Made by a program: the position numbers and the translations under genes
The notes under the pieces: generated by a model
The model's database searches: none
What the model was told of the DNA's origin: nothing
Seen by the model: the letters and a program-made list of their open reading frames with translations, nothing else
Virus record (IMG/VR): IMGVR_UViG_3300034093_001163
Location: 1 to 47,011 of that record
Direction: 5' to 3' (one strand)
Length of the DNA: 47,011 bases
DNA from: a virus
Shown: in pieces, positions 4,451-45,520 of the stretch
Numbering within the stretch: the first letter of the stretch is position 1
Layout of the letters: every line of letters begins with the position of its first letter

Positions 4451-4460
4451 TATAAATATA
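4451..4460 (-). promoter_or_regulatory. Putative phage late promoter (ATATTTAT class)
   Basis: The minus strand reads TTATATTTATATG, 42 nt upstream of the ATG at 4408, in the gap after the portal gene. It matches the recurrent ATA[T/C]TTAT core found upstream of most virion operons in this window. Confidence 0.5.
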
Positions 4461-6296: not shown

Positions 6297-6306
6297 ATAT
6301 AAATAT
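6297..6306 (-). promoter_or_regulatory. Putative phage late promoter upstream of portal
   Basis: The minus strand reads GATATTTATATC, 44 nt before the portal ATG at 6252. It carries the recurrent ATATTTAT core; here the flanks also form a short imperfect dyad. Confidence 0.5.
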
Positions 6307-7920: not shown

Positions 7921-8604
7921 CTAATCTTTAAGAGGCCTTACTAAATCGTAATTTTTAGGTTTCAATTTTTCATACGCCTCATTTCTTAACTTTGTAACTT
8001 CTTCTATTTCCCTTTCAAAATTAATAATATCAGTCATTATTTCCGCTTTCAATTCAGTAACATCCCTTTCCATACTCCAAGTTTCAATTGTACCATCTTC
8101 TTGAACTACTTCATATGTTTGCTTTGTATCATTATATGCTTGTTGGAATTGTGCAATTACATCTTTACCATGTGCAATCATATTAGAATACATTTTATAG
8201 TCTTCGTATTCTTTCCACAATCCATCGTATTTAATTTCAGCCTCTTTCAAAGTAAGACAATGTAAACAATACCCAGTTTTAGATATCATCTTTTTATCTA
8301 CTCTAGTTATTTTTATTGTTTTACAATTATCTGATTTACAGCTATTCAACTTATCTAAATAAGCTCTTACTTCAGCCATAGTATCACCCAATTCTGATGT
8401 TTCTACCTTACCAGCTTCTAATTGCTGCCAAGACCTACCATCGGAATCAGTCCATTTTTCACCAACTTCTCTTTTTACCTTTTCTTTATCTGCTCCAGAA
8501 AATGAAATAAATGATTCCTTTTCATATTCAGCACCATGCATTACCATATCCACCAACTTTCTACGAGTTGGATGCATAAACTTTTTATTGAATTCCTTTG
8601 CCAT
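7921..8604 (-). CDS. Zinc-ribbon-like protein upstream of terminase, candidate small terminase
   Basis: This 227-residue protein precedes the large terminase gene by 1 nt, the place of gene 16 (small terminase) in T4. The N-terminus is basic (MAKEFNKKFMHPTRRKLVDM). The middle has four cysteines as CKSDNC and YCLHC (about 88-118), suggesting a zinc knuckle. The C-terminal half (about 125-215) is long helix or coiled coil. A DNA-binding, oligomerising helical protein at this position would suit a packaging initiation subunit, but no known TerS signature is recognised and a zinc site is not typical of gp16. The role is inferred from synteny. Confidence 0.5.
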   Translation of the reverse strand: MAKEFNKKFMHPTRRKLVDMVMHGAEYEKESFISFSGADKEKVKREVGEKWTDSDGRSWQQLEAGKVETSELGDTMAEVRAYLDKLNSCKSDNCKTIKITRVDKKMISKTGYCLHCLTLKEAEIKYDGLWKEYEDYKMYSNMIAHGKDVIAQFQQAYNDTKQTYEVVQEDGTIETWSMERDVTELKAEIMTDIINFEREIEEVTKLRNEAYEKLKPKNYDLVRPLKD

Positions 8605-8625: not shown

Positions 8626-8638
8626 TATATAAGTATAT
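8626..8638 (-). promoter_or_regulatory. Putative phage promoter, ATACTTATATATA variant
   Basis: The minus strand reads ATATACTTATATATAC, 21-23 nt before the ATG at 8604. This C-containing variant of the ATA[T/C]TTAT element is nearly identical to those at 11725-11736 and 15423-15434. Confidence 0.5.
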
Positions 8639-11304: not shown

Positions 11305-11314
11305 ATATAAATAT
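11305..11314 (-). promoter_or_regulatory. Promoter-like ATATTTAT element abutting a start codon
   Basis: The minus strand reads AATATTTATATGATATG, where the final ATG is the start of the 881-residue gene. The element is only 3-4 nt from the start codon. Either it gives a leaderless mRNA, or it is non-functional and the gene is read from the promoter at 11725-11736. Confidence 0.35.
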
Positions 11315-11335: not shown

Positions 11336-11701
11336 TTATTTAGCTTGTTGAGCTTGTTGTTCAGCCAATTGCTTTCTAGTTGGTGCACCCGGTTGATATT
11401 GAACCGTACCATCTTGTAAATTAAGTCTTCCAGCTGGGTATTTATCATCTAATGATTCTAAAACTTCTTTTAACTCAATGCTTGTGTTTTTAAATTCAGC
11501 TTCTCCTTTCTCAAGTAAAGAATCTAATCTAATCAATTCATCTGCTATTTCCTGTTTTCTAACATAAATTTGTCCAAACTCAAGTAATAATTGATTTGAT
11601 TTATCATTTAATGAGTTTATTGTAGCTAAAATAGATTCATCTACTTTAGCAATTTCAATCTCAATAGATTGTTTTTGTGGAATGTTATCTAATCCTGCCA
11701 T
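11336..11701 (-). CDS. Small coiled-coil protein, paralogue of the 94-residue protein at 15125-15409
   Basis: This 121-residue acidic protein is helical from about 15 to 85 and then has KYPAGRLNLQDGTVQY (about 88-103) and a low-complexity Gln/Ala tail. The protein at 15125-15409 has the same plan: N-terminal acidic coiled coil with LGQIHLRIRE (here FGQIYVRKQE), then TYPKGEIDLKEGVVIF. The two are clearly duplicates that flank the glycosyltransferase genes, and both have the same C-variant promoter. No known family is recognised. A fibre- or tail-associated role, or a chaperone for the nearby fibre, can only be guessed. Confidence 0.6.
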   Translation of the reverse strand: MAGLDNIPQKQSIEIEIAKVDESILATINSLNDKSNQLLLEFGQIYVRKQEIADELIRLDSLLEKGEAEFKNTSIELKEVLESLDDKYPAGRLNLQDGTVQYQPGAPTRKQLAEQQAQQAK

Positions 11702-11724: not shown

Positions 11725-11736
11725 TATATAAGTATA
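11725..11736 (-). promoter_or_regulatory. Putative phage promoter, ATACTTATATATA variant
   Basis: The minus strand reads ATATACTTATATATATAAA, 23-25 nt before the ATG at 11701. It shares at least 13 consecutive bases with the elements at 8626 and 15423. Confidence 0.55.
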
Positions 11737-11750
11737 TTGTTTTTTTATTT

Positions 11751-12908
11751 TTATAAGAATTTTTTCAATTCATTTATAACCATTTCGGAAGTTATTGATT
11801 TGGTACATTCAAATTGACGTTCCGTACCCTTATGGTCAGGACACCAATTCCAATCACCAGCATCCAATCTAATTCTGTTAAAGCAACCCTCACATTTTCC
11901 TTTAGGTGCCGCAACTCTATAACAATCTTGCATTTCTGCCCAATCATAGGAAAATCCACTAATTAAAACAGTTGGTACATTTAAAGACCAACTCAACCAA
12001 CTCAACCCACTTCCAATACCAATAAATGCTTTTGATTTTAACATTTCATCCATTACCAATTCTAATGGGCCATTTGGGTGCTTAATTATTCCTTTTGGTA
12101 ATTTATTTCCCATATAATCATCACCCTCTTTGGATACTAATTTAACTGTATATCCTCTTTCCTTTAACCAATCTACTACATCTTGCCATCCCGTTGGGTT
12201 ATTCCAAAATTTAGATTGTGCAGTTCCAAATACACCAATACAAACTTGTTTAAGGCTTGGGTCTATTTTAACATTTCTTTTTTTAATTAAAGTTTTTACT
12301 TCTTTAAAATCTAAACCTAATATATCAGAACACATTTTTTGCATTGTTTGTGTTTTTGGGTCTATTGGATTTTTAAAGAAATTTATAGAACTATCATCAT
12401 TATAAAACAACCCAACACAATACATTGCGTATAAATTTTCAACAGCTTTGCCAGGCTCTACAAATTTTACATTAGGATATCTTTCTTCAAACATATGATT
12501 CATAAATGTAGAAGTTATAACTTCACACTCATGTTGTTTTCTAAACTCCTCAACATATGAAACCCAAGCTAATGAATCTCCTAAAGCCTTTGAATCCATT
12601 GCGATATAAACACGCTTACCTTTTGCATTATAAACATATTCGTACCATATTTTATCATTTTGATAAATAACAATTTTCCATTCTACAAAATATTCTATAC
12701 TACATTTACACCAACAATTATTTTTTATATTTGTAGAATAATGTACCTTTCCAGTTTTATTATCTATAAATTTAACTGTATATTCAGAATCTATATTTCC
12801 TTTAATTTCAACATATGGTCCTTTAACAAAATGAATTATCACTTTATTTTTTACCTCAACTATATTATTTTTATTTTTCTTTAAATTATCGTATATCATT
12901 AACTCCAA
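11751..12908 (-). CDS. BAHT/TibC-like O-heptosyltransferase (GT9-related)
   Basis: This 385-residue protein resembles the bacterial autotransporter heptosyltransferase family (Aah/TibC), which add heptoses to Ser residues of strand-loop-strand adhesins. Residues about 24-98 fit the family's N-terminal beta domain (FVKGPYVEIKG...KIVIY). The catalytic region has SKALGDSLAWVSYVEEFRK (106-124) with Asp111 in the GD motif. FWNNPTGWQDVVDWLKERGY (234-253) and FIGIGSGLSWLSW (295-307) fit the GT-B sugar-nucleotide region. The C-terminus has the metal finger C339-x2-C342-x13-C356-x11-C368. Its start overlaps the upstream GT gene by 10 nt, suggesting coupling. Acceptor and sugar donor are unknown. Confidence 0.82.
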   Translation of the reverse strand: MELMIYDNLKKNKNNIVEVKNKVIIHFVKGPYVEIKGNIDSEYTVKFIDNKTGKVHYSTNIKNNCWCKCSIEYFVEWKIVIYQNDKIWYEYVYNAKGKRVYIAMDSKALGDSLAWVSYVEEFRKQHECEVITSTFMNHMFEERYPNVKFVEPGKAVENLYAMYCVGLFYNDDSSINFFKNPIDPKTQTMQKMCSDILGLDFKEVKTLIKKRNVKIDPSLKQVCIGVFGTAQSKFWNNPTGWQDVVDWLKERGYTVKLVSKEGDDYMGNKLPKGIIKHPNGPLELVMDEMLKSKAFIGIGSGLSWLSWSLNVPTVLISGFSYDWAEMQDCYRVAAPKGKCEGCFNRIRLDAGDWNWCPDHKGTERQFECTKSITSEMVINELKKFL

Positions 12909-15070
12909 GTTTTAACTGTTAAATCTAATAAAGAGAATCCCTCTGCTTGCTTACTATATACTTTGTTTGTTGTATATCTTAGTCTTGGGTGATTTATAAA
13001 TACATGATTATACCAAAGGTCACCAACATCCCAGCCACAATCTACCAACCTATCCATCCACCATTGTTTCTCTCTATTAGGAATTAAATAACAATGTGCA
13101 AGGTCTTGATTTGCTGCTGTCTTTGAAAACAACTCATCTATTTTTTCTTTTTCTCTTGATGGATTATCTGCAAATGATATGAATGGTACATTATCTCTCT
13201 CTGATAAGAAACATGCTCTATGTACTATTTCAACAAATTCTTCCAAACCAGTATAGATAAATGCATCGGCTTCAAATACCAAAGTGTAATCAAAGTTTCC
13301 AGTATCCATCGTTTCCAATGCCATTCTATGTGCCAAATAACAGCCATAGTGTCTACCAGTCATCCAACCTAAACCAGCACCAGGGTATAATTCTCCCGGC
13401 TTATTATCTTTACTTATATGTTCAGGTCTTCTACAATTTTCAGCAGGTGCAAATCCTTCATATGGTTCATTTACAATTGGTTCGTAATACATACCATATT
13501 TTTCTAATTGTTTGATAGATTGAATAGATACTCTTTCTCTCATATCATCCGGCCTAGTCAACATATGTTTTATTTGAATACGAGGCTTTTTACGAATGAA
13601 TGAACGAAATCCTTTATCAAACTGCTCATAGAAAAATTCATTTGCAGCTTGTGTTACTCCGTGAAATACTGTATAATCATCTCCACTAATAATTCCACCT
13701 GGCTTTACTTTGTTGTACCAAACTTTTACATCTTCCATTAAAGAATCGTAAGAATGTCCAGCATCTAACATAATAAAATCTATACTACCATTTTGAAATT
13801 GATTAGCTGCATTATGTGAAGTATCTTTAATTGTATCAAATGTACCATAGTTATCTGATAAGACTGTATTATCTATGAATTCATAAAATATATCTCCATT
13901 AAATGTGCCAACAATATTTTGATGCAATTCTTCATCATCAGTTCCTTTCCAAGTATCTACGCTTGTGAATTTAATATCTTTACCAGACTCTTTAATTTTT
14001 GTTGCTAAATGATTTGTTGATTTACCAAACCATGCACCCACTTCTACAAATGTTTCACCACCTTTAGCGGATTCAACCATTTCATTATATAAATCAGTAT
14101 ATGCAAACCAACCAGGTATTTCATTAAATTCAGGTTGTAGTGTTTCTAATATAACTCTCTTAGTTAATTTTAAATCATCGTTAATATAAGTTACTAATGA
14201 ATTATTATCGTATGTATCTAAATAGGTGTGTAATTTTCTAAATATAGAAGGTAGTTTATATGATAGAGCTTCTTTAACTGATAATGGATTTAATTCTATT
14301 TTAGATGCAAAATAAAACATATCACTTGCTGCATAGAATGTATCAACATCAGTCCTCTCACCCCATATGACACAATTTTCAGGTTTATAATCCATTAAAG
14401 GTCTCCAATAGTGTTCAAAGTTTCCAGCCTGATTTCCTACAAAATGAAATTTAATTTTATATTTTTCTAATTGTCTTGCTATTGAAAATATTTCACCTTG
14501 ATTTTTACCTGGTGCAAATAAACCAACATTAAGTACATGCTTCCAAGTTGGGTCTAATCCCAATTCTTTTTGGGCCTCCTCCTTATTAAATTCATATTCT
14601 TCAATTGGATATTCCCATATATCAGTTTCAACGCCGGTTTCAATAAATCGTTGTCTACTCCATTCAGATACTAAAATGTACCTATCAGGATGATAAGCTA
14701 TTTCAGATGGATTTGTTAATGAACCATGTGTAGATGCTACAATAAAATAAGGTCTATCTTTTCTAAAAATAACGTCTAATGCAAATAATGGTAAATCAAA
14801 TTGTGGTATTTCCTGAAAATGAATTATATCAGGTTTAAAATCCTCAATAATTTGTAATATTCTAGATTTATCTTCTGCTAATGTATGTACTGGTACTAAC
14901 GACTTTATTCTATTTTTTTGAACCACAAAAGCATTTCCACCACTATTGTTTATTTCAACAACTTCAATTTCAAAATCTTTTATGAATTCTTTTACCTGCT
15001 TATATAGGTATTGCGGTTGACCCCCAGTAGAAAGATGCGGAGCAACATAAAGTAACTTCTTTTTAGACAT
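12899..15070 (-). CDS. Three-domain GT4 glycosyltransferase / class I methyltransferase / GT25-like protein
   Basis: This 723-residue protein has three enzymatic regions. Residues about 5-315 are a GT-B, GT4-type glycosyltransferase: YVAPHLSTGGQPQYLYKQ (8-25), VGLFAPGKNQGE (182-193), and KIELNPLSVKEALSYKLPSI (257-276) as the E-x7-E sugar-nucleotide motif. Residues about 325-490 are a SAM-dependent methyltransferase: TFVEVGAWFGKST (340-352), FTSVDTW (368-374) and FIMLDAGHSYDSLMEDV (432-448). Residues about 500-723 resemble GT25: RERVSIQSIKQLEKYG (511-526), GCYLAHRMAL (576-585) and FEADAF (599-604). A host-type promoter lies directly upstream, and the BAHT-like gene overlaps its end. Confidence 0.82.
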   Translation of the reverse strand: MSKKKLLYVAPHLSTGGQPQYLYKQVKEFIKDFEIEVVEINNSGGNAFVVQKNRIKSLVPVHTLAEDKSRILQIIEDFKPDIIHFQEIPQFDLPLFALDVIFRKDRPYFIVASTHGSLTNPSEIAYHPDRYILVSEWSRQRFIETGVETDIWEYPIEEYEFNKEEAQKELGLDPTWKHVLNVGLFAPGKNQGEIFSIARQLEKYKIKFHFVGNQAGNFEHYWRPLMDYKPENCVIWGERTDVDTFYAASDMFYFASKIELNPLSVKEALSYKLPSIFRKLHTYLDTYDNNSLVTYINDDLKLTKRVILETLQPEFNEIPGWFAYTDLYNEMVESAKGGETFVEVGAWFGKSTNHLATKIKESGKDIKFTSVDTWKGTDDEELHQNIVGTFNGDIFYEFIDNTVLSDNYGTFDTIKDTSHNAANQFQNGSIDFIMLDAGHSYDSLMEDVKVWYNKVKPGGIISGDDYTVFHGVTQAANEFFYEQFDKGFRSFIRKKPRIQIKHMLTRPDDMRERVSIQSIKQLEKYGMYYEPIVNEPYEGFAPAENCRRPEHISKDNKPGELYPGAGLGWMTGRHYGCYLAHRMALETMDTGNFDYTLVFEADAFIYTGLEEFVEIVHRACFLSERDNVPFISFADNPSREKEKIDELFSKTAANQDLAHCYLIPNREKQWWMDRLVDCGWDVGDLWYNHVFINHPRLRYTTNKVYSKQAEGFSLLDLTVKTWS

Positions 15071-15087: not shown

Positions 15088-15119
15088 CAAAGATACAAAA
15101 TTATATTGAAACCACCAAA
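15088..15119 (-). promoter_or_regulatory. Bacteroidota-type promoter (TTTG-N20-TATCTTTG) for the glycosyltransferase operon
   Basis: On the minus strand TTTG (15116-15119) and TATCTTTG (15088-15095) are separated by 20 nt. This matches the Bacteroidota housekeeping-sigma consensus (-33 TTTG, -7 TAnnTTTG). The -7 element ends 17 nt before the ATG at 15070. It implies recognition by unmodified host polymerase, so probably early expression. Confidence 0.72.
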
Positions 15120-15124: not shown

Positions 15125-15409
15125 TTATTCAACGGATTCAAATATAACAACACCTTCTTTTAAATCTATTTCACCCTTTGGATATGTTTTTTCCAAATCT
15201 TTGATAACTTGATTAAATTCTAAACCAATTTTATCAGATTCAGTTTCTACACCTTCTTTAACAGATTCCAATCTTTTAATTTCCAATTGCAATTCTCTAA
15301 TTCTCAAATGAATTTGTCCTAAATTCAGTATCAATTCATTTGCTTGAGTTTGATATGATACCAATTTGTCTAATGTTTCCTTTGGTAATTGTTCAGTCTT
15401 TTGTGCCAT
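15125..15409 (-). CDS. Small acidic coiled-coil protein, paralogue of the protein at 11336-11701
   Basis: This 94-residue protein is helical and acidic through about residue 75, with LGQIHLRIRELQLEIKRLES (about 30-50) as probable coiled coil. It ends in a short beta-like segment, TYPKGEIDLKEGVVIFES. It is a shorter version of the 121-residue protein near 11.5 kb, lacking that protein's Gln/Ala tail. The gene sits between the giant fibre gene (32 nt before it) and the glycosyltransferase operon. No known family is recognised; a small virion or fibre-assembly protein is possible. Confidence 0.6.
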   Translation of the reverse strand: MAQKTEQLPKETLDKLVSYQTQANELILNLGQIHLRIRELQLEIKRLESVKEGVETESDKIGLEFNQVIKDLEKTYPKGEIDLKEGVVIFESVE

Positions 15410-15422: not shown

Positions 15423-15434
15423 TATATAAGTATA
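15423..15434 (-). promoter_or_regulatory. Putative phage promoter, ATACTTATATATA variant
   Basis: The minus strand reads ATATACTTATATATAAATA, about 15 nt before the ATG at 15409. The downstream flank also contains TATAAATA, the T4 late-promoter core, on the coding strand. It sits in the 31-nt gap after the fibre gene. Confidence 0.5.
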
Positions 15435-15440: not shown

Positions 15441-18400
15441 TTAAGAATTAAGTTTAGATTCTAAATCCCTAACTTTTAAGGTTAATTCTTGAACTGCTTT
15501 CCATAGAACAAATACTAATCCTTGCTTATCAATACCAGATGTCATCCATTTTTTATCTCCAGTTGGATTTTCCTCATCCTCATAATGCCAATCAAAATCA
15601 ACCCAATCTTCAAAGCCAGCAGCAACTACTTCTTCCGCAATTACACCGGTTTGAATAGGAGGATTTTCTAAATCCTTATCAGCTTTCCAATAGTAATTTA
15701 CAATTGGAACACTTAATATTTTATCTAATAAATTATCAGGTTCCCAACTTGTGATATCATATTTATGCCTTATACACGAAGTATCTCTACCAATAGTCCA
15801 GTTACTAAGTGATATTTCCAATCCTCTACGAGTTCCACCACCAGGACTATATAAACCAAATAAATAAACCGTAGGAAATGTTTCCCCACCCTGAGTTGTA
15901 TATGTTAATTGTCCGGCTTTTCCATTACTTGCTTGCCAGTTAGTAAAACCAGTTCCCAATGTTATATTATTACCATTAGTATTAATGTGTCCAGCAGATG
16001 CTTCTATATTAATTGCATTTCCACCACTTGTACCTTTTATCTGAACAGTTGAGTTTGTACCATCTCCAGTTAATTCGTACCATCCCTTTGATTTTAATAT
16101 TGGGTATGCCGTTGATGTATTTTTTTCTGCTTTAAAATATTTGTTTGTACCAGATGCAATTTGTATTCCTGAACTTGTCAACTCAACTATTTCAGTAAGT
16201 TTATCCAATTGTATTCCTGGGAATGTTTGTGCAAAGAAAATATCAACATTACCACTAATAACAGTTCCCCATTGGATATGCCAAGGGTATGCATAATATG
16301 TTACACCTGCTTCTAAAGTAAGTGTTTGATTACTTGTTGCTGTTCCTGTAACTGATGCACCAGAACCACCACTAAAAGTTGAAACATAAAAGTAACCTGC
16401 TGTTAGTGATGTGATTTTGGTGCCAGCGGGATCATCTGTAGAGAATATATCAAATCCAAACTCTCCATTAATTTCACCAGACCAAGGTGTATTTGGAGTG
16501 ACTCCTACGTTATTAGCAGAAAAATCAATATCACCATCTGAAAATGTACCAACAAATCCATTTAAATTAATTGCTGTACCATTACCAGCCGTAAGTGTGT
16601 AAGTTTTAGTGTAACCATTACTCAAATATGTACTGGAATTAGCCGAACTAATTGAAGGTAAGGCATCATTTATTGTAGCTACAGTAAAAGTGACAGGACT
16701 TCCTCCAACTTCTGATAAAGAACCTTTTTTTAATATTAAATCAGGATTGCCACTTGCGGTTGTTTTTATGTAAATACTATTATTAGCTGCATCTAAAAAT
16801 AAAGTATTTAAATTATTTTTAATTAAACCAGAATCAATTATCCATCCATCAATACCTCCTAAATAACCACTATCAGCGGTAACTGAACCTGCAATAGTCA
16901 AATTAGTACCATCAAAAAATAATCTATTACCTAATGAAAATTTATTAGTAGTATCTACATAGAATGGTGTATTTAAATTATTATAAGTACCAGTTCCTAT
17001 GTATATTTTACGATTAGATGTTTGAGCATCCAATACTATTTGAGGATATACATCTGAGCCTACTGCAAATTTGTTAGAAAAATAACCTTGAACACCAGCA
17101 ACCACAGGTGCATATACAAAATTAGATGATATAAACGTGCCAGTAAATGCACCATCTGCTAATTGTTGAGTTTTAGCCACTGCATTAATAAATGCTGCAC
17201 TAGCGGTTAAATTAGCTATATTTGCTGCTGACGTAAGAGCAATTGCTGCTGAACTTGATGCTGAATTATTTGCGTATGCTTGCGTTGATGCATTACCACT
17301 ACCTCCAGCTACTATATTCAAATCACCAGATAATTCCAAACCAGTTCCGGTCCATCTAAGATAGTTAGTACCTGCTGCGTTTTTTAAAGAAAATCTTGGT
17401 TTGTATGTAGTTGGCCCAGTTCCATCATTATAGATACCCAACCATATACCAACTTGGTCATATCCAATTGTACCATATTGACCTATTGCCATATAAGGGT
17501 CTTCTCTACCACCAGCCAATACAATGTTTGCAAATGCACTACCACTATTGTTACCAACGTTAATTGTGTTTTTTACAAATGATTCTTCAAATATTGCAAT
17601 CTTAGCTGCCACAAAGAATTCTTCTTCTCCTAAAAATTGCCACCAAGCATTATCACCACCAGCAGTTGGTGCATGATAATTAACTAAAGTACCTTGCTTA
17701 TTATAAGTTGTAGGTCCACTTCCACTTATTGCTGCGTAATAAGTTACCGGAGATGTTCCATAGATAACGGCATCTCTTCTTGTATTTTTAGTCTCAACTG
17801 AACCACTATAATCAGTTGCATTGTTCCACTCACCTCTCATTACAATACCAGGTCCAGTTGACCCTTCTATTTGTATTGATAATGATTGTGTTTTATATAG
17901 GGTTTGTCTACCTTCACATTCAATTTGATATACAATTTCAGCAATACTATTTGTTTGTGGGTCTGCCCAATTTGTTATTGGTGGCATTTCAGCAGGTACT
18001 CCAGTTACATAGCTTCCCACTAACCAACTATTTGGTAAAGTTAGCCAAGATGATTTAGTATATATAGAAACCCTACATTGATTTGGGTATCCAGTTTTAC
18101 CATATGCATCTACTGCAGTTATAGGACTCCATCCGGCCGGCTGATTTGTTAATTCTTGATTACCTCTATATACTCTAACTAATGTACCCGTTCCAGATGT
18201 TCTAAATTCTCCAGATACTCTATAAACTGCTGATGAATTTTCATTTGTTAATTTAACATCATATGGAGCTGGTGGTTCAAATTGTACAGAAATAGATTGT
18301 GTTACAAATTGAACTTGTCTTCCACCATATACTCTATCATTTTCAAAATCTACCTTATATACAATTGTACCCGATGAACTAACAGCTGGTGCGTACCAAC

Positions 18401-21400
18401 CAATTATATCTCCAATTGAAGCTGGACTTCCAGCTGGGAATTTATTAGCTGCTGTTGTAATCCAAGACGATGTTGTAAATATTGATGCAGATGAATATCC
18501 TAATATACCAATAACATTATCTTGGAAATCATAATCATCAGGATATGTTGGTGCCGGATACGATGTTACGTTTGTTAATTGTTGTGTTCCTTTAAATGTG
18601 GTTATCTTCATTCCAGTTGCTTTGAATGAACTTGTCCACAAATTAGCTGTCATAGCACAATTATCATTTGATGATACTATTTTATAAGCATCTGCTCCAG
18701 CCTTTATACCAGATATTGTTAATTGTCCTTCTGCTCTAATATCAGATTGTTGTAATGAAGTATATACAGGAGCTTTACCATCCGTAAGTTTAACTTTCCA
18801 AGTTTTATTTTCTCCAGGCCCAGCTGCATCAGCCCCATCAATTGGTCCAAATGTATATGATGGTGGTGTACCTTCTAATGGTTGAGGTCCATCATAAAAA
18901 GTTTCACTACCATCCAATTCAACATAATATAAATAAGCGTTTGGACCTGCTGTTACTCCAGCTGAATACGAACCTGTTGTATTAAATGCACTTACTATTA
19001 AATCAATACCACTTTCAGGTGTAGTTTTTCTACCATCTCTATTATAGTTTACAGTATATGAAGATGCTTTAAAATCTACTTTACGAGCTTTTGCAGCATC
19101 TATGTTTTTTGTAAATGTTTGAGTTCTAGTATAAATTGATGAAGTATATGAATGCCCAGCTCCTAATGCAAATGGATATACTTGAATTGTATAAAGTGCA
19201 CTTGCCGAAACGTATGGATGGTCAAATCTATTATAATTTATAGTTGCTGTACTTAATGATGAAGATGATAATGAACCTGTTCTGATATTCCATATAGAAC
19301 CTCCTCTAGTTTCAATTGAGTTTATTCTCCAAGTACCAGGAGCTATTGAACGTGTTGTGAATGTAAGAAAATCATCTCCTTCTTTAACTTGTATTGTTGT
19401 ATTTGCTGGAGAATATCCAACTGGAGTTACATAACCAACTTCATCAGCTGCTAATGTTACTACCGATGGAGTCATTAATATTTGTATAGGTGGTGCTCCT
19501 TCTAATACTTTTGTATAATTTACAATCACACTAGCAGTATAGATAGATGATGTATAATATGGATGTATTATAAGTGGATATTCAACACTACCACTTAATT
19601 GTGTAAAATTAGATGATGCACTTACTATTAACGATGCCGTATATGGTACTCCAAATGATGAAGTAAATTGTATATTACCTGATTTAATATTTTTTTCTAT
19701 TATTGAACCAGTTGCTATATAGAATGTACCATGTGTACTTAAATTATTTAAAGTATATGCGCTTGAACTAAATGCAAGATATCTAGAACCTTGTTTTAAT
19801 TTAATATCGGTAATTGAAGGTCTAAAATCATTTATAACACCTCTTGAATTAGCTCCCAATGTTACGGCGATTGGATTTACTTCAAATACAATACTCTCAT
19901 CTCCTTGCTTACCTTCGGGTACAATTGTAAATGTTTTATCTAAACTAACCGATGCAGATGTCCAAGGTTCAGTATATGTAAATGTTAGTGTTAAATTTTT
20001 AGTTTGATTTAAAGGACTTCTTACATAATTTAAACCAGATGGAGCTTGTGATGGGATTATATTTTTATTATCATCAGTTGCAACAACAGTTAGTGTTGGG
20101 TGTAAACTTTGAGTATGATAATACATCCAATATTCAGGAACCCAATCTTTATTAATTGACATTGATGGATAAATCTGAAACGAAGATGTTACTGCTTCTA
20201 ATGTACTTGTAGTTCCTCTTTTTGCAAAAGAAGCGGTAGCAAATCCAAATGAAGGTCTAAATTCAATTTCCGTTCTAGGATTTATTGTAAATGAATCAGC
20301 ATTATAAGTTACAGTACCACTATCCAATCCATCTTGCAAATCTTCCAATATAATTGATGCTAACACAGAAGATGATACAGCGTAAGCTGGACCAGATGCT
20401 GCAGATGATGATGGCATTAAGTAAACTATTCTTCTGAAATCAATTGAATCTCTATTGAATACTGCATTATAATCTATTTGGCTAGTACCTAATGAACCTG
20501 TTGATAATCCCACAATCATATTACTTGCAGTAACATAAGATAAGTTTACAAACTTTTCATTTCCTTCTTTAGAGCGAGAAATAATATGAAGTTGAATATT
20601 TGAAAAGTTTTTATAAGATTGTTTACTTAATAAAATATCATTAATACCATCAATTCTTACCGCTTGAATTTCCAAAGATGATGTACTACTATTTCTAATT
20701 TGAGTTCCTCTATAAGGTCTAATAATATGATTCACACCACCAAATCCATCTAATATTTTATATATGTTAATGGTATCGGTAAATCCCTCACACTCTCCTG
20801 TCAATTTTACTAATTGAACATTTATATCACTTCTAGAACCTGTGAAATCCTGAACTCTCATAAAAACATTACTAGTTCCAATTCCTTGTAATAATCCAGG
20901 ATATTGGCCGCTTCCTGAATACAATGGGTCTGGCCCAGCGTAAACTGATGCGGTATATTGAGATGAAGATAATGCGTTTCCAAAGAAATCAAAAGATTGA
21001 GACGTATAATGTACCGAACCTGTTAATAAAGTTTTTTGTTCTTCTATTGTTATAATCGTAGGTGGTACTGGATTTGAACCAGAATCAAACTGAAATCCTG
21101 TACTTGATGCTACTAATCTTAATTGCTTTCGTATTGTTTGTAAGTTACCACCATCAAAAGTTTTGGTTTCTTCAACCAATACAGGTATATAATTATTATT
21201 TATATCATAAAATTCAAAACGATATATAAACGTTTCTGCAGGTAAATTTCTTGGTACTGATTGTATAAATGTAATTTCATCAGGAGAGAATGCCGTTTCT
21301 TGCGATGCCTTTAAACTAACATCAGCTATGTACCAATCAGTTCCCCTCACATCAAAATATAATTTAGCATTATCAATTTTTTCTGCTTTTATATTTTCAC

Positions 21401-22814
21401 TAATATTTTGTTTTTGAAGTAAAGCGTTTTGAGTTTTTAATGTTAATATACTTTGCTTTACTTGTAGAGTAATTGGTGAACCATTTATTGTTGTTTGTCT
21501 AGAACCACTTAGGTATGCTTCAATATAATTACTAGCATTTCCAACTGCTTCTTTTTTAACATTAAAATTTAAACTATATTCAATACCCTCATTTATATTA
21601 AAAGATTTTGATGTAAAGAATTTTTCAACACCAATAGTACTATTTAATTTAACTGAATTGTATAAAAATGTTTGATTAAATGTGGTTACTAAATTATTTG
21701 AAGATGTTATCCAATATCCAAATGGATACTGTGATTTAAAATTTAAATTATCAAATAAACCATAGTTTTCTTGATTTTTTGTAGTAGATTCCAAATCAAC
21801 TAAAAGTTCATTTGATTCTAATTGTATTTCTTGAACAAATTGGAAATCAGATAAATCTGCAGTTGATTTTCTAAATATTTTAACTCTAGCACAATCACCA
21901 ACAAACGTAGTTAAATCTGCTAATGTTATTTTTGCAAAAGAACCAGTTAGTGCCGTTTTTAAATTATCAACCCCCTCCGTATAATTAAATGTTGCAGTAA
22001 ATGCTTCATTTGTAAAATTTTCAATTTGTGCAGCTGAACCCAATGCCGTATTAGTATATGGTGGTTGTACTATTATTTCTCTTGAATTAATTACTTCTGT
22101 AACTAATGGTGAATATTCTATACCAGGAATATCCAAATATGTTCCTACAACAGATGCTGTCCAAAACGTGTTTCCAACGGTTGTTAGTAAATATTCTGTG
22201 GCTTGTGTGAAATTTTTTAGTTGCTGTCCTACGTTTGGAGTTAATGCCTGCCCATTTACAATTCCAGTTTGAATTTTTGAAGTAACTACATTTGAAAATA
22301 TTGGTTTAACTATTTCAGTAATACTAACTTGAGGTCTTACATAAAATCTTACGTTATCTTCATTTGATAATAATCTATTAACTTTAAATTCTCTTTCCCA
22401 TTTAAGATTATAAATACCAGCCCATTCATCAGGAATTGGTTGAGTGATACCATCCGCATCTATATAAGTTTTCAGTTCACCCAATACAGTAATTTTTGCA
22501 TTACCAATTGGAGTATCCTCATATATGTAAACTGCGACTAATTTTGATAATCCTTCATAATATTCAGGAACACCACTACCAGGTTCAAAATAAATTGGAT
22601 TACCATCAACATCTAAAATTTCTATTTTAATTTCAGTACTCTCCTTTAAATGCTGGGAGCCTTCAACTAAAAACCCATTTTTACCTCCTGTAAATGTTTC
22701 TTTAAATTCAGTTATTCTAAAATAATCAGAATTTGGATTTGTATCTGTTACAAATGTTTGAAAATAAGTTAAATTTTGCGTTAAATTATCCGCATATTTT
22801 TTGATTCTTGCCAT
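15441..22814 (-). CDS. Giant tail fibre with C-terminal S74 intramolecular chaperone
   Basis: This 2457-residue protein is by far the largest here and is rich in Ser, Thr, Asn and Gly. About residues 970-1240 hold two tandem Ig-like units (EVNPIAVTLGANSRGV and LMTPSVVTLAADEVGY mark their starts), and about 1380-1640 hold a second pair (near IVSSNDNCAM and VKLTNENSSAVYR). A GPGIVMRGEW element near 1655 precedes a repetitive distal shaft. The C-terminus (about 2335-2457) is a Peptidase_S74 domain: DTSCIRHKYDITSWEPD, then TGVIAEEVVAAGF, ending in a coiled coil. S74 domains trimerise fibres and then usually self-cleave at the Ser. It most likely mediates host adsorption, and glycosyltransferase genes follow. 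Confidence 0.88.
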   Translation of the reverse strand: MARIKKYADNLTQNLTYFQTFVTDTNPNSDYFRITEFKETFTGGKNGFLVEGSQHLKESTEIKIEILDVDGNPIYFEPGSGVPEYYEGLSKLVAVYIYEDTPIGNAKITVLGELKTYIDADGITQPIPDEWAGIYNLKWEREFKVNRLLSNEDNVRFYVRPQVSITEIVKPIFSNVVTSKIQTGIVNGQALTPNVGQQLKNFTQATEYLLTTVGNTFWTASVVGTYLDIPGIEYSPLVTEVINSREIIVQPPYTNTALGSAAQIENFTNEAFTATFNYTEGVDNLKTALTGSFAKITLADLTTFVGDCARVKIFRKSTADLSDFQFVQEIQLESNELLVDLESTTKNQENYGLFDNLNFKSQYPFGYWITSSNNLVTTFNQTFLYNSVKLNSTIGVEKFFTSKSFNINEGIEYSLNFNVKKEAVGNASNYIEAYLSGSRQTTINGSPITLQVKQSILTLKTQNALLQKQNISENIKAEKIDNAKLYFDVRGTDWYIADVSLKASQETAFSPDEITFIQSVPRNLPAETFIYRFEFYDINNNYIPVLVEETKTFDGGNLQTIRKQLRLVASSTGFQFDSGSNPVPPTIITIEEQKTLLTGSVHYTSQSFDFFGNALSSSQYTASVYAGPDPLYSGSGQYPGLLQGIGTSNVFMRVQDFTGSRSDINVQLVKLTGECEGFTDTINIYKILDGFGGVNHIIRPYRGTQIRNSSTSSLEIQAVRIDGINDILLSKQSYKNFSNIQLHIISRSKEGNEKFVNLSYVTASNMIVGLSTGSLGTSQIDYNAVFNRDSIDFRRIVYLMPSSSAASGPAYAVSSSVLASIILEDLQDGLDSGTVTYNADSFTINPRTEIEFRPSFGFATASFAKRGTTSTLEAVTSSFQIYPSMSINKDWVPEYWMYYHTQSLHPTLTVVATDDNKNIIPSQAPSGLNYVRSPLNQTKNLTLTFTYTEPWTSASVSLDKTFTIVPEGKQGDESIVFEVNPIAVTLGANSRGVINDFRPSITDIKLKQGSRYLAFSSSAYTLNNLSTHGTFYIATGSIIEKNIKSGNIQFTSSFGVPYTASLIVSASSNFTQLSGSVEYPLIIHPYYTSSIYTASVIVNYTKVLEGAPPIQILMTPSVVTLAADEVGYVTPVGYSPANTTIQVKEGDDFLTFTTRSIAPGTWRINSIETRGGSIWNIRTGSLSSSSLSTATINYNRFDHPYVSASALYTIQVYPFALGAGHSYTSSIYTRTQTFTKNIDAAKARKVDFKASSYTVNYNRDGRKTTPESGIDLIVSAFNTTGSYSAGVTAGPNAYLYYVELDGSETFYDGPQPLEGTPPSYTFGPIDGADAAGPGENKTWKVKLTDGKAPVYTSLQQSDIRAEGQLTISGIKAGADAYKIVSSNDNCAMTANLWTSSFKATGMKITTFKGTQQLTNVTSYPAPTYPDDYDFQDNVIGILGYSSASIFTTSSWITTAANKFPAGSPASIGDIIGWYAPAVSSSGTIVYKVDFENDRVYGGRQVQFVTQSISVQFEPPAPYDVKLTNENSSAVYRVSGEFRTSGTGTLVRVYRGNQELTNQPAGWSPITAVDAYGKTGYPNQCRVSIYTKSSWLTLPNSWLVGSYVTGVPAEMPPITNWADPQTNSIAEIVYQIECEGRQTLYKTQSLSIQIEGSTGPGIVMRGEWNNATDYSGSVETKNTRRDAVIYGTSPVTYYAAISGSGPTTYNKQGTLVNYHAPTAGGDNAWWQFLGEEEFFVAAKIAIFEESFVKNTINVGNNSGSAFANIVLAGGREDPYMAIGQYGTIGYDQVGIWLGIYNDGTGPTTYKPRFSLKNAAGTNYLRWTGTGLELSGDLNIVAGGSGNASTQAYANNSASSSAAIALTSAANIANLTASAAFINAVAKTQQLADGAFTGTFISSNFVYAPVVAGVQGYFSNKFAVGSDVYPQIVLDAQTSNRKIYIGTGTYNNLNTPFYVDTTNKFSLGNRLFFDGTNLTIAGSVTADSGYLGGIDGWIIDSGLIKNNLNTLFLDAANNSIYIKTTASGNPDLILKKGSLSEVGGSPVTFTVATINDALPSISSANSSTYLSNGYTKTYTLTAGNGTAINLNGFVGTFSDGDIDFSANNVGVTPNTPWSGEINGEFGFDIFSTDDPAGTKITSLTAGYFYVSTFSGGSGASVTGTATSNQTLTLEAGVTYYAYPWHIQWGTVISGNVDIFFAQTFPGIQLDKLTEIVELTSSGIQIASGTNKYFKAEKNTSTAYPILKSKGWYELTGDGTNSTVQIKGTSGGNAINIEASAGHINTNGNNITLGTGFTNWQASNGKAGQLTYTTQGGETFPTVYLFGLYSPGGGTRRGLEISLSNWTIGRDTSCIRHKYDITSWEPDNLLDKILSVPIVNYYWKADKDLENPPIQTGVIAEEVVAAGFEDWVDFDWHYEDEENPTGDKKWMTSGIDKQGLVFVLWKAVQELTLKVRDLESKLNS

Positions 22815-22850: not shown

Positions 22851-22860
22851 AATATTTATA
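22851..22860 (+). promoter_or_regulatory. Putative phage promoter on the plus strand for the RHH-like gene
   Basis: The plus strand reads AATATTTATAATT, ending 44 nt before the ATG at 22905. This is the same core and the same distance seen on the minus strand before the portal gene, but correctly oriented for the only plus-strand gene, which supports its being a directional promoter. Confidence 0.5.
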
Positions 22861-22904: not shown

Positions 22905-23078
22905 ATGAAGAAGTACGCAATGATACAAATAGATGCTGAAATACATCAGGCATTAAAGGAATTTTGTAAAGAGAAAGGATATAAGATAAATGGGTTAGTA
23001 GAAACCCTTATAAAAGAAAAGGTGCAGTCTTTAAACAAGACCACACCTAAAAATGTATTACCAGTTACTAGAAATTAA
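22905..23078 (+). CDS. Small ribbon-helix-helix-like DNA-binding protein
   Basis: This 57-residue plus-strand gene begins MKKYAMIQIDAEIHQALKEF. The pattern is a short strand (YAMIQID), a helix (AEIHQALKEFCKEKG), a turn and a second helix (KINGLVETLIKEKV, about 27-40), as in Arc/CopG/MetJ-type ribbon-helix-helix repressors. The basic tail is probably flexible. It is the only plus-strand gene in the window and converges with the SbcD-SbcC gene, overlapping its end by 11 nt (23068-23078). A tandem 12-bp repeat lies directly upstream. A phage transcription regulator is the likeliest role; the target could be its own promoter and the divergent fibre gene. Confidence 0.75.
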   Translation: MKKYAMIQIDAEIHQALKEFCKEKGYKINGLVETLIKEKVQSLNKTTPKNVLPVTRN

Positions 23079-26000
23079 TCTTACTAAAACCATCTACTTT
23101 CTTAATTTCAATAAGTCCATCTACTATATCTCTCATTTGTTCTAAGTGAGAAATAACCCAAATGAAATCAAATTGAGTTTTAAGATACTGCATCATCATA
23201 AATAAGGATGATAGATTATCCGCATCTAATGTTCCAAACCCTTCATCTATTACTAAGAAGTTTGGTCTAGGTAGGTTGCATATGTTAATTAGAGCCACTC
23301 TAATCGCTAATCCCGATATGAACTTCTCCATACCACTACACATCTCTAAAGCCCATTCCTGGTCTTCGTAAACGATTCTAGCGTTAATGTTCTTTCCATC
23401 AGTATCCATTGATATTGAGAAGTCTACCACTTGTCCTAATATGTTGTTCACTTCGTTTTCAATTGCTGGAAGTGCTTTGGATATTAACTCATATGGTACA
23501 CCATCTTTCTTAACTGCATCTAAGTAGAATGTATATAATTGATTTTTACTTTCCAATTCTTTTACTTCCTCCATCTTAGCTACCATATTGTCAATGTAGG
23601 TTTTTGTTGCACCTACCTCTGACATTAATTTTAACATCTTTTTATTGACATTAGATATTTGAGTTTCAATACCTTGCTTTTCCTCTTTAATATTTTCAAT
23701 TTGATTTACTAAAGAAGTATTGTTTGTAATTGTTTCTACATTATCATTATATCTTTTAATATCAGCCTTTGCTGTTTCTAATTGATGTTGTAGTAATTCA
23801 ATTCTTGATTCTGCGGTTTTACCATCGGCTTCTAATCTTTCTCTTAATGTAATTAATCTACTATGCTCATCAGTCCATTGTTTCCATTGACGGAATTGGT
23901 CTTCAACTCCAGCCAATTCACCTAATTGAGTTATAAGAGCACCATGTAATATGTTTAGTATTTCTAATTGATTACCTTGCTCTCCTAATTTCTTTTCAGT
24001 TTCATTTGCATCCTTTACGAATACATTGTTCATACAAAAGTTACAATTAGGGTCATACTCATGCTCTGCTAAATGTGATAACTTCTCTTTGTTGGTTTCA
24101 ATTGTTTGTTCTAATAATTCAATCTGATGTAATGTATCTTTGATTTGCCCTTTAACTAAATTCAATTGTATTTGAGCATCACCAATATCAGTTCCGTTTA
24201 TAGTAACTTTAGAATCAACCATTTCTTTGGCTTCTCTAACCAATTCTTTAGCCTCCGTATGCTTTTCAACTAATTTGTATTTAGTACCACCCCAAGTTGT
24301 TAAATCACCCTCAATTGTTTTAAGTTTTGAATTTAGAGTATCAATGTTTAAATTACCTTGTATTGGAATGATTTGTTGGGATAGATTTATTATTTGTTCA
24401 TCCAACTCACCCTTTCTAATTTCCAATTCTAACTTCTCAGCATCTAAATTATCATACTCCTCTCTCTTTGAATTCAAGTCGTTTTCTTTTTGGGCTAATT
24501 CCGAAGTGAAGTCGGTCTTTCTGAAATTTCTGATAAGTGCATTTACATCTTTGATATCGTTAGTAGCAGTATCATACAGCTTATCAAATATATCCAAGCC
24601 CATAAACTGAGCCATCAAATCTTTCCTTTCCGATTGTGATTTATCAATGAATAGGGCGTTGTTAGCTTGTAGTGAAAGGGCCGTCATAATGAAATCCTCA
24701 TATCTTCCTACATAGGTTTCAATAACTTGGTTGGTATCCCTACGTTCCGTTCCGTTAAGTGATTCTCTACCACTATCTCCCTCTCTCCAAAAGTCCACAT
24801 CCACTTTAACGTTCTTTCCCTTATTGATTGTTCTTCCCTCTCTACGAATACCATAGACAACTCCATCTACGGAGAATTCTAATTGGCAATGGAAATCGGC
24901 TTTACGATTGTTCATAATAGCAGATGCTTTGTAAGCCCTACTACACTTATCGAATAAACAAAATGAGATTGCATCAAATAGGGATGATTTACCTTGTGCA
25001 TTTGGTGCGAATAATCCCATCAGTCCGTTTATCTTATCGAAGTTGATTACATTCCTCTCTCCGTATGAGAACATATTACTGAAATCAAACTTAATTGGTT
25101 TCCAGCTTATGTTTCTTTGTAGTTCTGATGGTTGTATTCTACTATTAATGTCACGATTTATTTTCTCTATTCCAGCTAAGTCCTCCTTTGTCACAAATGG
25201 CATCATACGTTCAATATACTCACCGATTAAAGAGTTTTGATGGTTTATATCAGCTATGCTGTCTACTTCCAACCTTGCTTCTCTATCGTTGGTTTTCTTC
25301 TTATTAAATGTATCCGTTCTAATGATTGTAAAGTCCTCCACACCATACTTTGCCGTAATGTCCGCCATCATTCTCTTTGTATCTGCGGTATCCGTATTAG
25401 TTATCCTCACTCTTAAACGAGGATACAACGGCATATCAGTTACATCCGGCACAACGCCACCATCAACATCTAAAGTATAGTATCCATAATCGTTTTGGAT
25501 ATCAACTTCCTCATAGGTCATTGTATCTAAATCCCAAACTAAGAATCCGTGCTTATCTAATGTCTCACCGAAGTTTTGTTGTACCAAAGAACCAGCATAT
25601 ACCACCTTACATCCGCTTGGTGATATCATCTCTTGTCTTTTATGAATATCTCCTAATAAGGCTAAATGGTATCCATCAAATATTTCAGTTGTGAAGTGTC
25701 TACTACTAACTACATATCCTACATCGGTTGTAGAGTTATCAACAGGTCCGTGAAATAGTGCAATCTTCTTATTACCAAATAGAGTATCAGCTTTAGGCCA
25801 ATTGTCTTTGTTGTCAAATATACTGAATACTGCAAAATCAACTCCACCAATACCATAAACCTGCGTATCTCTTAAGTAAGTTAAGTTTGGTAGTTTTAAT
25901 GCATCTACAATTGGAGTAAGTACATCCATTCTGTCCGAATTGTTCATATTACAATCGTGATTACCAGCGATTACAATAGTAGGACATAATTTGTTACATT

Positions 26001-26211
26001 CAGTAAACAACCAGCTAATCTCACTTACCAATTCAGGACTCATTTCCAATTTAGCATGAGCGATATCACCAGCTAAGTAGATAATGGAATCTTCCGTTCC
26101 TCTCTTTTTGATTTCTTCGAACATTGAGTAGAATACTTCTCTAAACTCTTTGTGTCTTTTTATGTTACGGATGTGTATATCCGCAATGTGATAAATTCTC
26201 TTTAACCTCAT
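23068..26211 (-). CDS. SbcD-SbcC (gp47-gp46/Mre11-Rad50-like) single-chain fusion nuclease-ATPase
   Basis: This 1047-residue protein joins nuclease and ATPase in one chain. The N-terminal calcineurin-like phosphoesterase (about 1-340) has ADIH (10-13), GD (48-49), GNHD (83-86), FHGPV (His154), LLGDIHKRQ (Asp188/His190). The Rad50/SbcC half has a Walker A (APNAQGKSS, 402-410), long coiled coils around a CNFC zinc hook (723-726), the signature CSGMEKFISGLAIRVAL, and Walker B VIDEGFGTLDADN (from about 987). In T4 these are separate gp47 and gp46, which process DNA ends for recombination-dependent replication and host DNA degradation. It is co-transcribed with the primase, 3 nt after a small unknown gene. 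Confidence 0.93.
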   Translation of the reverse strand: MRLKRIYHIADIHIRNIKRHKEFREVFYSMFEEIKKRGTEDSIIYLAGDIAHAKLEMSPELVSEISWLFTECNKLCPTIVIAGNHDCNMNNSDRMDVLTPIVDALKLPNLTYLRDTQVYGIGGVDFAVFSIFDNKDNWPKADTLFGNKKIALFHGPVDNSTTDVGYVVSSRHFTTEIFDGYHLALLGDIHKRQEMISPSGCKVVYAGSLVQQNFGETLDKHGFLVWDLDTMTYEEVDIQNDYGYYTLDVDGGVVPDVTDMPLYPRLRVRITNTDTADTKRMMADITAKYGVEDFTIIRTDTFNKKKTNDREARLEVDSIADINHQNSLIGEYIERMMPFVTKEDLAGIEKINRDINSRIQPSELQRNISWKPIKFDFSNMFSYGERNVINFDKINGLMGLFAPNAQGKSSLFDAISFCLFDKCSRAYKASAIMNNRKADFHCQLEFSVDGVVYGIRREGRTINKGKNVKVDVDFWREGDSGRESLNGTERRDTNQVIETYVGRYEDFIMTALSLQANNALFIDKSQSERKDLMAQFMGLDIFDKLYDTATNDIKDVNALIRNFRKTDFTSELAQKENDLNSKREEYDNLDAEKLELEIRKGELDEQIINLSQQIIPIQGNLNIDTLNSKLKTIEGDLTTWGGTKYKLVEKHTEAKELVREAKEMVDSKVTINGTDIGDAQIQLNLVKGQIKDTLHQIELLEQTIETNKEKLSHLAEHEYDPNCNFCMNNVFVKDANETEKKLGEQGNQLEILNILHGALITQLGELAGVEDQFRQWKQWTDEHSRLITLRERLEADGKTAESRIELLQHQLETAKADIKRYNDNVETITNNTSLVNQIENIKEEKQGIETQISNVNKKMLKLMSEVGATKTYIDNMVAKMEEVKELESKNQLYTFYLDAVKKDGVPYELISKALPAIENEVNNILGQVVDFSISMDTDGKNINARIVYEDQEWALEMCSGMEKFISGLAIRVALINICNLPRPNFLVIDEGFGTLDADNLSSLFMMMQYLKTQFDFIWVISHLEQMRDIVDGLIEIKKVDGFSKINF

Positions 26212-26214: not shown

Positions 26215-26490
26215 TTATTTTCGTTTAACTACATCATATCCCTTATCGTTTAGAATAGATGTAACCAATTCCATTTTATTATTTATTAATCTTCGTATTT
26301 CGTTTGCTTCTTTTTTATTTAACTTTGTCAAACCTTTTAATCTTAATTTTTCACCCATACTCATAGGTGGCTTGACATTTTTTTCATTTTCAATTGATTT
26401 CAATGGTAATGCAATTTTTAATTTGCTCATTAAACCAGCATCTACACCATCCTTATATCTATTATCTTTTATATTTGGATTGTTTTTCAT
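26215..26490 (-). CDS. Small basic protein of unknown function
   Basis: This 91-residue, lysine- and asparagine-rich protein lies between primase and the SbcD-SbcC fusion. Its start overlaps the primase stop in an ATGA arrangement (4 nt), and it ends 3 nt before the next ATG, so it is firmly within the operon. The C-terminal half (about 48-91) is helical (KLRLKGLTKLNKKEANEIRR), and the charge suggests nucleic-acid binding. I recognise no family; a replication accessory factor is a guess from context. Confidence 0.5.
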   Translation of the reverse strand: MKNNPNIKDNRYKDGVDAGLMSKLKIALPLKSIENEKNVKPPMSMGEKLRLKGLTKLNKKEANEIRRLINNKMELVTSILNDKGYDVVKRK

Positions 26491-27425
26491 ATATTGTTTA
26501 ATTTAGATAGAACTAAGTCATCCCATCCAGTTTGTTTTGCTCCCTTTAGGAGTTCGTTTACTTTTTTAAATCCCATTTCACCAGCATCCTTATCAGTTGG
26601 TATAATGTTACGAACTTTAATTCCGTTCTTTAAAAAGTAATCAGTATGTTTAGTTGAATCTGCAATAGCATCTGAATCTAACATAATAGTTACTTCTTTA
26701 ACACCTTTATCTATAATCTTATTCTTTAATTTGCTCAATAAGAACTTTCCAAGCAAAGGAATACAATTTCTTTTAATTGAGAATGAATCGAATACACCCT
26801 CACATAAAGTAATGGGTTCGTTCCAATTGATTTGATTATCAAACACAATTACATCTCTATTAACTGGTGGATTCTTATACTTCATTCGTTCTTCTTTGTA
26901 ATATGAACGAGCTACGAAGTAATTTAAGTCACCATTCTCATCATACGAAGGTACAATGATTCTGCCAAAGTATAATCCATCAGAACAATATCCGATGTTA
27001 TATTTAACGATATCAGCTTGGGTAATTCCTCTTTCTTTAAGGTAGTTAATAGCTTGATTGTATTCAGGTTGGAATCCATTTGGTTTGAAGTGTAATTGTT
27101 TGAATTCTGATGGTAATTGTAACTTAGCTACATACTCATCTTTCTCAACTAATGTATAATCATCCTCACCATAGATATCTTTCAATCTATTAAGGTCCCT
27201 CACATCCACATTGAGTTTGCGAAGAAGGGATTGGATACTTCTACCTTTAGAATCGCATACCCAGCAGTGCCATCTTTGAGTATCTAAGTTTACTTGGAGT
27301 TTTTTCTTATGGTGATTACAAAATGGACAATGGTGAGCCTGCTCATTTCCCTTTAAGGATGAACCTACACCCAATGTGGTGTCTAAAATGTTAATGACCG
27401 TTAGTTTATTCTTCCCAAATAGCAT
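26487..27425 (-). CDS. 61: DNA primase, DnaG/T4 gp61-type
   Basis: This enzyme makes RNA primers for lagging-strand synthesis. The 312-residue protein has an N-terminal zinc ribbon with C33-x2-C36 and C54-x2-C57 (CPFCNHHKKK...HCWVC). The TOPRIM-type catalytic region has LCEGVFDSFS with Glu209 and TIMLDSDA with Asp250/Asp252. There is no fused helicase domain, so it matches T4 gp61 rather than gp4-type primase-helicases; a separate helicase is expected outside the window. A host-type promoter lies 17 nt upstream of the ATG. The end overlaps the next gene by 4 nt. Confidence 0.9.
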   Translation of the reverse strand: MLFGKNKLTVINILDTTLGVGSSLKGNEQAHHCPFCNHHKKKLQVNLDTQRWHCWVCDSKGRSIQSLLRKLNVDVRDLNRLKDIYGEDDYTLVEKDEYVAKLQLPSEFKQLHFKPNGFQPEYNQAINYLKERGITQADIVKYNIGYCSDGLYFGRIIVPSYDENGDLNYFVARSYYKEERMKYKNPPVNRDVIVFDNQINWNEPITLCEGVFDSFSIKRNCIPLLGKFLLSKLKNKIIDKGVKEVTIMLDSDAIADSTKHTDYFLKNGIKVRNIIPTDKDAGEMGFKKVNELLKGAKQTGWDDLVLSKLNNI

Positions 27426-27442: not shown

Positions 27443-27474
27443 CAAATATACAACTTTTTTGGGAATTATCCAAA
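27443..27474 (-). promoter_or_regulatory. Bacteroidota-type promoter (TTTG-N20-TATATTTG) for the primase operon
   Basis: On the minus strand TTTG (27471-27474) and TATATTTG (27443-27450) are 20 nt apart, the same geometry as at 15088-15119. It sits directly after the stop of the preceding gene and 17 nt before the primase ATG. It probably gives early, host-polymerase expression of primase and SbcDC. Confidence 0.7.
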
Positions 27475-28318: not shown

Positions 28319-28328
28319 TATAAATATA
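28319..28328 (-). promoter_or_regulatory. Putative phage late promoter
   Basis: The minus strand reads TTATATTTATATAAAG, 21 nt before the ATG at 28297. It matches the recurrent ATATTTAT core with the TATA extension. Confidence 0.5.
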
Positions 28329-29246: not shown

Positions 29247-29256
29247 TATAAATATT
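29247..29256 (-). promoter_or_regulatory. Putative phage late promoter
   Basis: The minus strand reads CAATATTTATATAC, 18 nt before the ATG at 29228 and downstream of the terminator at 29265-29288, so it restarts transcription after termination. Confidence 0.55.
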
Positions 29257-31220: not shown

Positions 31221-31230
31221 TATAAATATA
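31221..31230 (-). promoter_or_regulatory. Putative phage late promoter
   Basis: The minus strand reads GTTATATTTATAGAATATAG, 25 nt before the ATG at 31195. It carries the recurrent ATATTTAT core. Confidence 0.5.
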
Positions 31231-42804: not shown

Positions 42805-42814
42805 TATAAATATT
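42805..42814 (-). promoter_or_regulatory. Putative phage late promoter for the baseplate operon
   Basis: The minus strand reads AAATATTTATAAAC, 28 nt before the ATG at 42776. It matches the recurrent ATATTTAT core. Confidence 0.5.
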
Positions 42815-45510: not shown

Positions 45511-45520
45511 TATAAATATG
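45511..45520 (-). promoter_or_regulatory. Putative phage late promoter
   Basis: The minus strand reads CCATATTTATATACATAC, 26 nt before the ATG at 45484. It carries the recurrent ATATTTAT core with TATA extension. Confidence 0.5.

Follow-up and report, generated by a model that had tools for sequence, protein, structure and literature searches.

The sigma-A factor of the Bacteroidota (sigma-ABfr) reads promoters for which the F. johnsoniae consensus is TTTG at -33 and TAHHTTTG at -7, and in that species the -7 element lies 4-5 nt ahead of the transcription start (PMC6847099). In phage T4, gp55 recognises the late promoters (PMC2988020), and in bacteria TibC adds heptose to autotransporter adhesins (PMC4358343). 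Here these systems are compared with IMG/VR virus record IMGVR_UViG_3300034093_001163, a 47-kb sequence (47,011 nt; "the window" denotes this whole stretch) that is about 31% GC and 97% coding and has all of its main genes on the minus strand. Its terminase and portal are T4-like in Pfam and PHROG searches. Its nearest annotated relatives are two phages: Flavobacterium phage immuto, the top terminase match, at 57% for the terminase and 48% for the portal, and Microcystis phage Mel-JY01, at 56% and 51%. We found no published description of the promoters of these phages in the open-access literature.

The candidate host-type promoter

The features that bear on this site, and on a similar one ahead of the primase operon, are as follows.

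15088..15119, minus strand: predicted host-type promoter of the glycosyltransferase (GT) operon (exact consensus match, conservation in relatives)
12899..15070, minus strand: 723-aa fusion of a family 1 GT and a SAM methyltransferase (Methyltransf_24/TylF-like; Pfam, PHROG)
11751..12908, minus strand: TibC/Aah-type protein O-heptosyltransferase (TIGR04414, PDB 4rap)
15441..22814, minus strand: 2457-aa fibre-like protein with a C-terminal endosialidase-type chaperone (PF13884; synteny with the GT cassette)
27443..27474, minus strand: predicted host-type promoter of the primase operon, TTTG-N20-TATATTTG, twin of the GT site
26487..27425, minus strand: DnaG-like primase (phrog_47, E 4e-48)
26215..26490, minus strand: 91-aa ORF between the primase and SbcCD-like genes (ORF list)
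23068..26211, minus strand: SbcCD-like fused nuclease of T4 gp46/47 type (phrog_77 and phrog_100)
23020..23048, minus strand: terminator-like hairpin ending the primase operon, 12 pairs and then TTTCTTTTAT (terminator scan), the strongest of its kind in the stretch scanned

Read on the minus strand, positions 15119-15088 are TTTGGTGGTTTCAATATAATTTTGTATCTTTG. The -33 TTTG lies at 15119-15116 and is followed by a 20-nt spacer and the -7 element TATCTTTG at 15095-15088. The first-pass annotation had recognised the Bacteroidota sigma consensus in TTTG-N20-TATCTTTG, and this was borne out, with the -33 TTTG, the N20 spacing and the -7 TAHHTTTG all present. The site sits in a 54-base gap between the stop codon of gene 15125-15409 (at 15125) and the ATG of the GT fusion (at 15070). 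If transcription starts 4-5 nt past the -7 box, it would begin at about 15083/15082 and leave a leader of 12-13 nt. The primase site starts directly after the upstream stop and has a predicted leader of the same 12-13 nt. Both sites carry the -33 TTTG at N20, within the accepted 19-21 nt, and both fit the Flavobacterium refinement TAHHTTTG, its HH rule included.

By count alone the motif is near chance. The N20 form occurs twice in the whole window against 0.43 expected, a number reached by 9 of 100 shuffles, and the N19-21 form five times against 1.61 expected from shuffles; the three additional matches (19481+, 38265+ and 32820-) all lie within coding sequence. Its significance therefore rests on placement. 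We scored the 15 intergenic gaps of at least 30 nt, together 1007 bases, and found the motif in two of them, against 0.0065 expected and never more than one across 4000 simulations. The earlier claim that it stands only before the GT and primase operons thus holds for intergenic sites: 11 of the 15 gaps carry another box, described below, and two carry neither. A scan for sigma70-type promoters gave fewer matches than shuffled sequence and was uninformative.

Conservation settles the matter. The motif is kept in all 22 GT orthologues with upstream sequence (14/14 distinct), and in the 12 distinct N20 sequences all 10 fixed motif positions are invariant, compared with 9 of 20 spacer positions. 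Among 51 distinct primase upstream sequences, 39 have the motif, 8 more have the -7 box only and 4 have neither by the pattern used; some carry TTAGG or TATATTTA. In relatives it stands before no other window gene family that could be compared. More distant contigs repeat the motif before GT and primase, and in two contigs a third host-type site precedes an N6/N4 DNA methyltransferase gene. The methyltransferase sites (L284-L285, L294; G004:57422 and G001:49323) have a predicted near-leaderless mRNA. In several relatives the ATG follows the -7 box so closely that the GT mRNA, too, is predicted to be leaderless or nearly so. A relaxed version of the motif gave forward/reverse counts of 3/0, 3/0 and 4/0 in the window clade and immuto; in T4, RM378 and P-SSM4 it was no commoner than its reversed control. 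We conclude that a Bacteroidota sigma-A-type promoter at 15119-15088 is supported by its sequence and conservation.

The GT sites also keep bases beyond the sigma consensus, namely AAATAAATTTGGT and GTAT[AC]TTTGTTACAAT, and immuto has variants with a distinct GTTGC at -33 and a conserved tail, GGTATC. These features favour a middle-class promoter, used by host polymerase with a phage co-activator, in which case the GT and primase operons would be expressed after true early genes lying outside the fragment. However, both host consensus elements are fully matched, which makes an activator unnecessary, and no activator is known here. We regard a middle-class assignment as unlikely, though not negligible.

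A second box and a candidate gp55-like sigma

A second motif, ATAYTTATA, occurs in 12 copies on both strands of the window.

45511..45519, minus strand: phage-type box before 45092-45484 (motif scan)
42805..42813, minus strand: phage-type box before 42276-42776 (motif scan)
31221..31229, minus strand: phage-type box before 30569-31195 (motif scan)
29247..29255, minus strand: phage-type box before 28332-29228 (motif scan and orthologue comparison)
28319..28327, minus strand: phage-type box before 28094-28297 (motif scan and orthologue comparison)
22852..22860, plus strand: phage-type box before candidate ORF 22905-23078 (motif scan)
15425..15433, minus strand: phage-type box before 15125-15409, which is the next gene upstream of the GT promoter (motif scan and orthologue comparison)
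11727..11735, minus strand: phage-type box before 11336-11701, the gene just past the GT operon (motif scan and orthologue comparison)
11306..11314, minus strand: phage-type box before 8656-11301 (motif scan and orthologue comparison)
8628..8636, minus strand: phage-type box before 7921-8604 and the terminase gene (motif scan and orthologue comparison)
6298..6306, minus strand: phage-type box before portal gene 4477-6252 (motif scan)
4451..4459, minus strand: phage-type box before 3527-4408 (motif scan)

Since the count is modest (12 against 6.5 expected), it is again the placement that is striking. All 12 copies are intergenic and oriented towards a gene, and the minus-strand orientation is found in 11 of the 15 gaps against 0.34 expected. 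The gaps with neither class are one at the contig edge and the 253-nt gap before the fibre gene, which holds a near-match, ATATTTATT. The only plus-strand copy precedes the only candidate plus-strand ORF (22905-23078), which encodes 57 aa (MKKYAMIQIDAEIHQALKEFCKEKGYKINGLVETLIKEK) and appears ribbon-helix-helix-like by eye, with sub-threshold Pfam matches only. A terminator-like hairpin at 29271-29285 (minus strand) lies just before the box of 28332-29228.

Orthologues of six genes keep the box (39/41, 22/22, 13/13, 13/16, 15/15 and 14/14 distinct sequences), and at those of 30569 and 4477 the pattern is found in few upstream sequences (10/35 and 2/12). Of the 120 gaps of immuto, 24 have it, among them the ones ahead of the terminase, portal, tail sheath, tail tube and tape measure genes. 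Neither the window set nor the immuto set shows strong conservation upstream of the box, so that a strong -35 partner is lacking. The T4 late box TATAAATA, tried in gene orientation as a late promoter, was rejected, since only 2 of the 15 gaps have it and 0.71 would be expected.

A box at 4-45 nt from the start codons of genes that have no Shine-Dalgarno sequence could instead be an mRNA element for processing or translation, which would leave a single promoter class. We consider this improbable: the box is missing from within-operon starts and from both host-promoter gaps, its distance to the ATG is variable and in one case just 4 nt, and a gp55-like sigma in sister phages would match it.

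The candidate for that sigma is immuto gp118. Its family, which shares a conserved segment similar to sigma region 2, has hundreds of IMG/VR relatives and includes a Mel-JY01 protein (E 5e-46). The gp55 profile matched gp118 weakly (phrog_234, E 0.008 in one genome and 0.5 by hmmscan), and hhalign of the family against the single T4 gp55 sequence was not significant (probability 1%). An AlphaFold2 model of gp118 (pLDDT 79) found T4 gp55 (7d7c_F) as its best VIA-align match (Z 10.4, aligned over 120 residues); each of the 50 structural matches listed was a sigma factor or a sigma-RNAP entry. Foldseek of the model alone was weak (E 0.23), and chance can give helical models high scores; the modelled evidence that the gp118 family is a gp55-like sigma with a sigma domain-2 fold is strong but not conclusive. 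Family members, unannotated as such, lie at L108:28174-28872 (immuto gp118) and at 158764-159534 of PP395634.1. Beyond domain 2 the family has a helical C-terminal extension; this may be a sigma-4-like part, in which case it would unite what T4 splits between gp55 and gp33. Neither the window nor the fragments of its clade, all of them incomplete genomes, yielded the sigma gene; we infer that the window's own phage has one.

Expression of the operon and its possible substrate

These results point to two promoter classes, a host-type (probably early) and a phage-type (probably late) one. The host-type class precedes enzymes, not virion parts: primase and SbcCD, the GT operon and, in relatives, the DNA methyltransferase. 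Our preferred reading, to which we give a probability of about 0.78, is that 15119-15088 is a genuine host primary-sigma promoter within such a two-class programme. Host sigma-A would recognise the site and start at about 15083, and the transcript, its 12-13-nt leader lacking a Shine-Dalgarno sequence, would cover the GT-methyltransferase and TibC-type genes. Soon after DNA entry, unmodified host polymerase would transcribe a few enzyme operons lying among virion genes, that is, primase-SbcCD, the glycosylation cassette and, in relatives, the DNA methyltransferase. Most other window genes, virion genes included, would start later from the solitary ATAYTTATA, which a gp55-like sigma of the phage would recognise. 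The least probable alternative is a chance or fossil motif, in which case transcripts started at the late box (15425-15433) would run on into the GT operon; near-chance counts and a 54-base gap without a terminator by scan would suit it, but gap placement, ten invariant bases across diverged relatives and the same layout at the primase argue firmly against it.

The claim that the glycan enzymes are made early, before virion proteins, stood in part. Early expression is probable, given the class that the GT operon shares with primase-SbcCD and, in relatives, with the DNA methyltransferase, and given the separate late-type box. Exclusivity did not stand: the scan detected no terminator within the 54 bases that separate the GT operon from the preceding gene with its late box, and some late transcription is therefore expected to read through. 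Going by this arrangement, the GT operon is probably expressed both early and late rather than early only. Nor was timing supported as a guide to whether host or virion is the substrate, since enzymes made early can modify either.

The TibC-type enzyme is more informative. Its gene probably starts with the ATG at 12899, which shares bases with the stop of the GT gene (TAATG), and encodes a protein that scores 281 bits against TIGR04414 (curated cutoff 200) and matches PDB 4rap with E 1e-50; D110 and the iron-finger cysteines Cys339/342/358/370 are all aligned to TibC. The AF2 model of the 723-aa GT fusion (pLDDT 55) was too poor to assign its C-terminal domain. Two relatives (L025:560-2197 and L286:6833-8473) have a GT fusion that lacks the methyltransferase domain, residues ~318-487, so the protein is modular. 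In Mel-JY01 the GT1 and TibC-like parts are fused in one gene, placed after a structural gene. The annotated phage records in which a TibC-type cassette was found are Mel-JY01 and three others, all large metagenomic phages; no further ones were found.

In relatives extending that far, the cassette adjoins the fibre gene and lies between two small genes. The flanking genes of the window, 15125-15409 and 11336-11701, look like weak paralogues of each other (~25-38% by tblastn in relatives), and by its position the cassette looks as if it had been set between duplicated genes. The presence of a TibC-type enzyme in the operon favours a protein acceptor, which is the likelier kind on sequence grounds; most simply, the candidate would be the adjacent fibre, 15441..22814. 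Autotransporter, AIDA-type or beta-helical acceptor repeats gave no match in the virion proteins scanned. Tentatively, then, the host-type promoter might pre-load the TibC-type enzyme and the GT-methyltransferase before virion genes are expressed, the adjacent fibre being O-glycosylated during its synthesis and the late genes being driven by a gp55-like sigma from an inverted T4 box. If true, this would be O-glycosylation of a virion protein by an autotransporter-type enzyme.

Host phylum and comparison with known systems

The first-pass annotation had also named Bacteroidota as the host phylum, and this is well supported by the promoter, by immuto as the closest terminase and by a missing Shine-Dalgarno signal (5% of window starts against 4% in shuffles; 6% in immuto). 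From these sequence features, the window phage very probably infects Bacteroidota. A search for the host by homology, in two scans of bacterial genome contigs, found no relative.

Mel-JY01 (PP395634.1), deposited as a Microcystis phage, has some twelve promoters of Bacteroidota type ahead of its early-type genes (for example at 53694, 66115, 83371 and 143673). These sites, CTTG/TTTG-N20-GTATATTTG, precede replication, GT and primase genes, and the idea that the late box crosses host phyla via Mel-JY01 was dropped for this reason. Unlike the window and immuto, Mel-JY01 shows Shine-Dalgarno signals. There are two ways to read this: the phage may in truth infect a Bacteroidota bacterium that accompanies the culture, or the motif may be a poorer diagnostic than it looks. 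The host assignment deserves a check.

For abundant uncultured T4-like phages, of which hundreds of relatives were met in IMG/VR, these results would provide a readable two-class promoter code, from which host phylum and early-type genes could be read in fragments. They predict a specific pair of late sigma and box, testable in the isolated phage immuto, and place a TibC-type protein-glycosylation cassette in the early-type class, beside a tail fibre.

Compared with immuto, the window is likewise T4-like, with the same late box, no Shine-Dalgarno signal and the same primase-exonuclease and terminase-portal clusters. The immuto GT cluster differs, and no TibC-type gene was detected there. Unlike those of the window, its early-looking sites end TATATTTA; this variant only was found, canonical TAHHTTTG being present in 0 of 120 gaps. 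The variant -7 box is CGTATATTTA, followed by GGTAT in several cases and with GTTGC at -33 in some (L107-L110; NC_055915.1, gaps before 22125, 63189, 71038 and 76244).

With Bacteroidota sigma-A promoters (PMC6847099) the window shares the -33 TTTG, the -7 TAHHTTTG and a leader without a Shine-Dalgarno sequence. The phage-borne sites differ in their strong -33, fixed 20-nt spacing and conserved G before the -7 box, whereas the host genomic promoter set shows little -33 conservation. Like bacterial TibC/Aah heptosyltransferases (PMC4358343), the window enzyme has the family model, D110 and the iron-finger cysteines; unlike them, it is phage-encoded and lies beside a tail-fibre gene. T4 (PMC2988020) and the window have in common host-sigma promoters for replication enzymes and a solitary -10-like box, without a -35, for virion genes. 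In gene orientation, however, the T4 late box is the reverse complement of ATAYTTATA, and the gp55-like sigma of the sister phages, in contrast to T4 gp55, carries a helical C-terminal extension.
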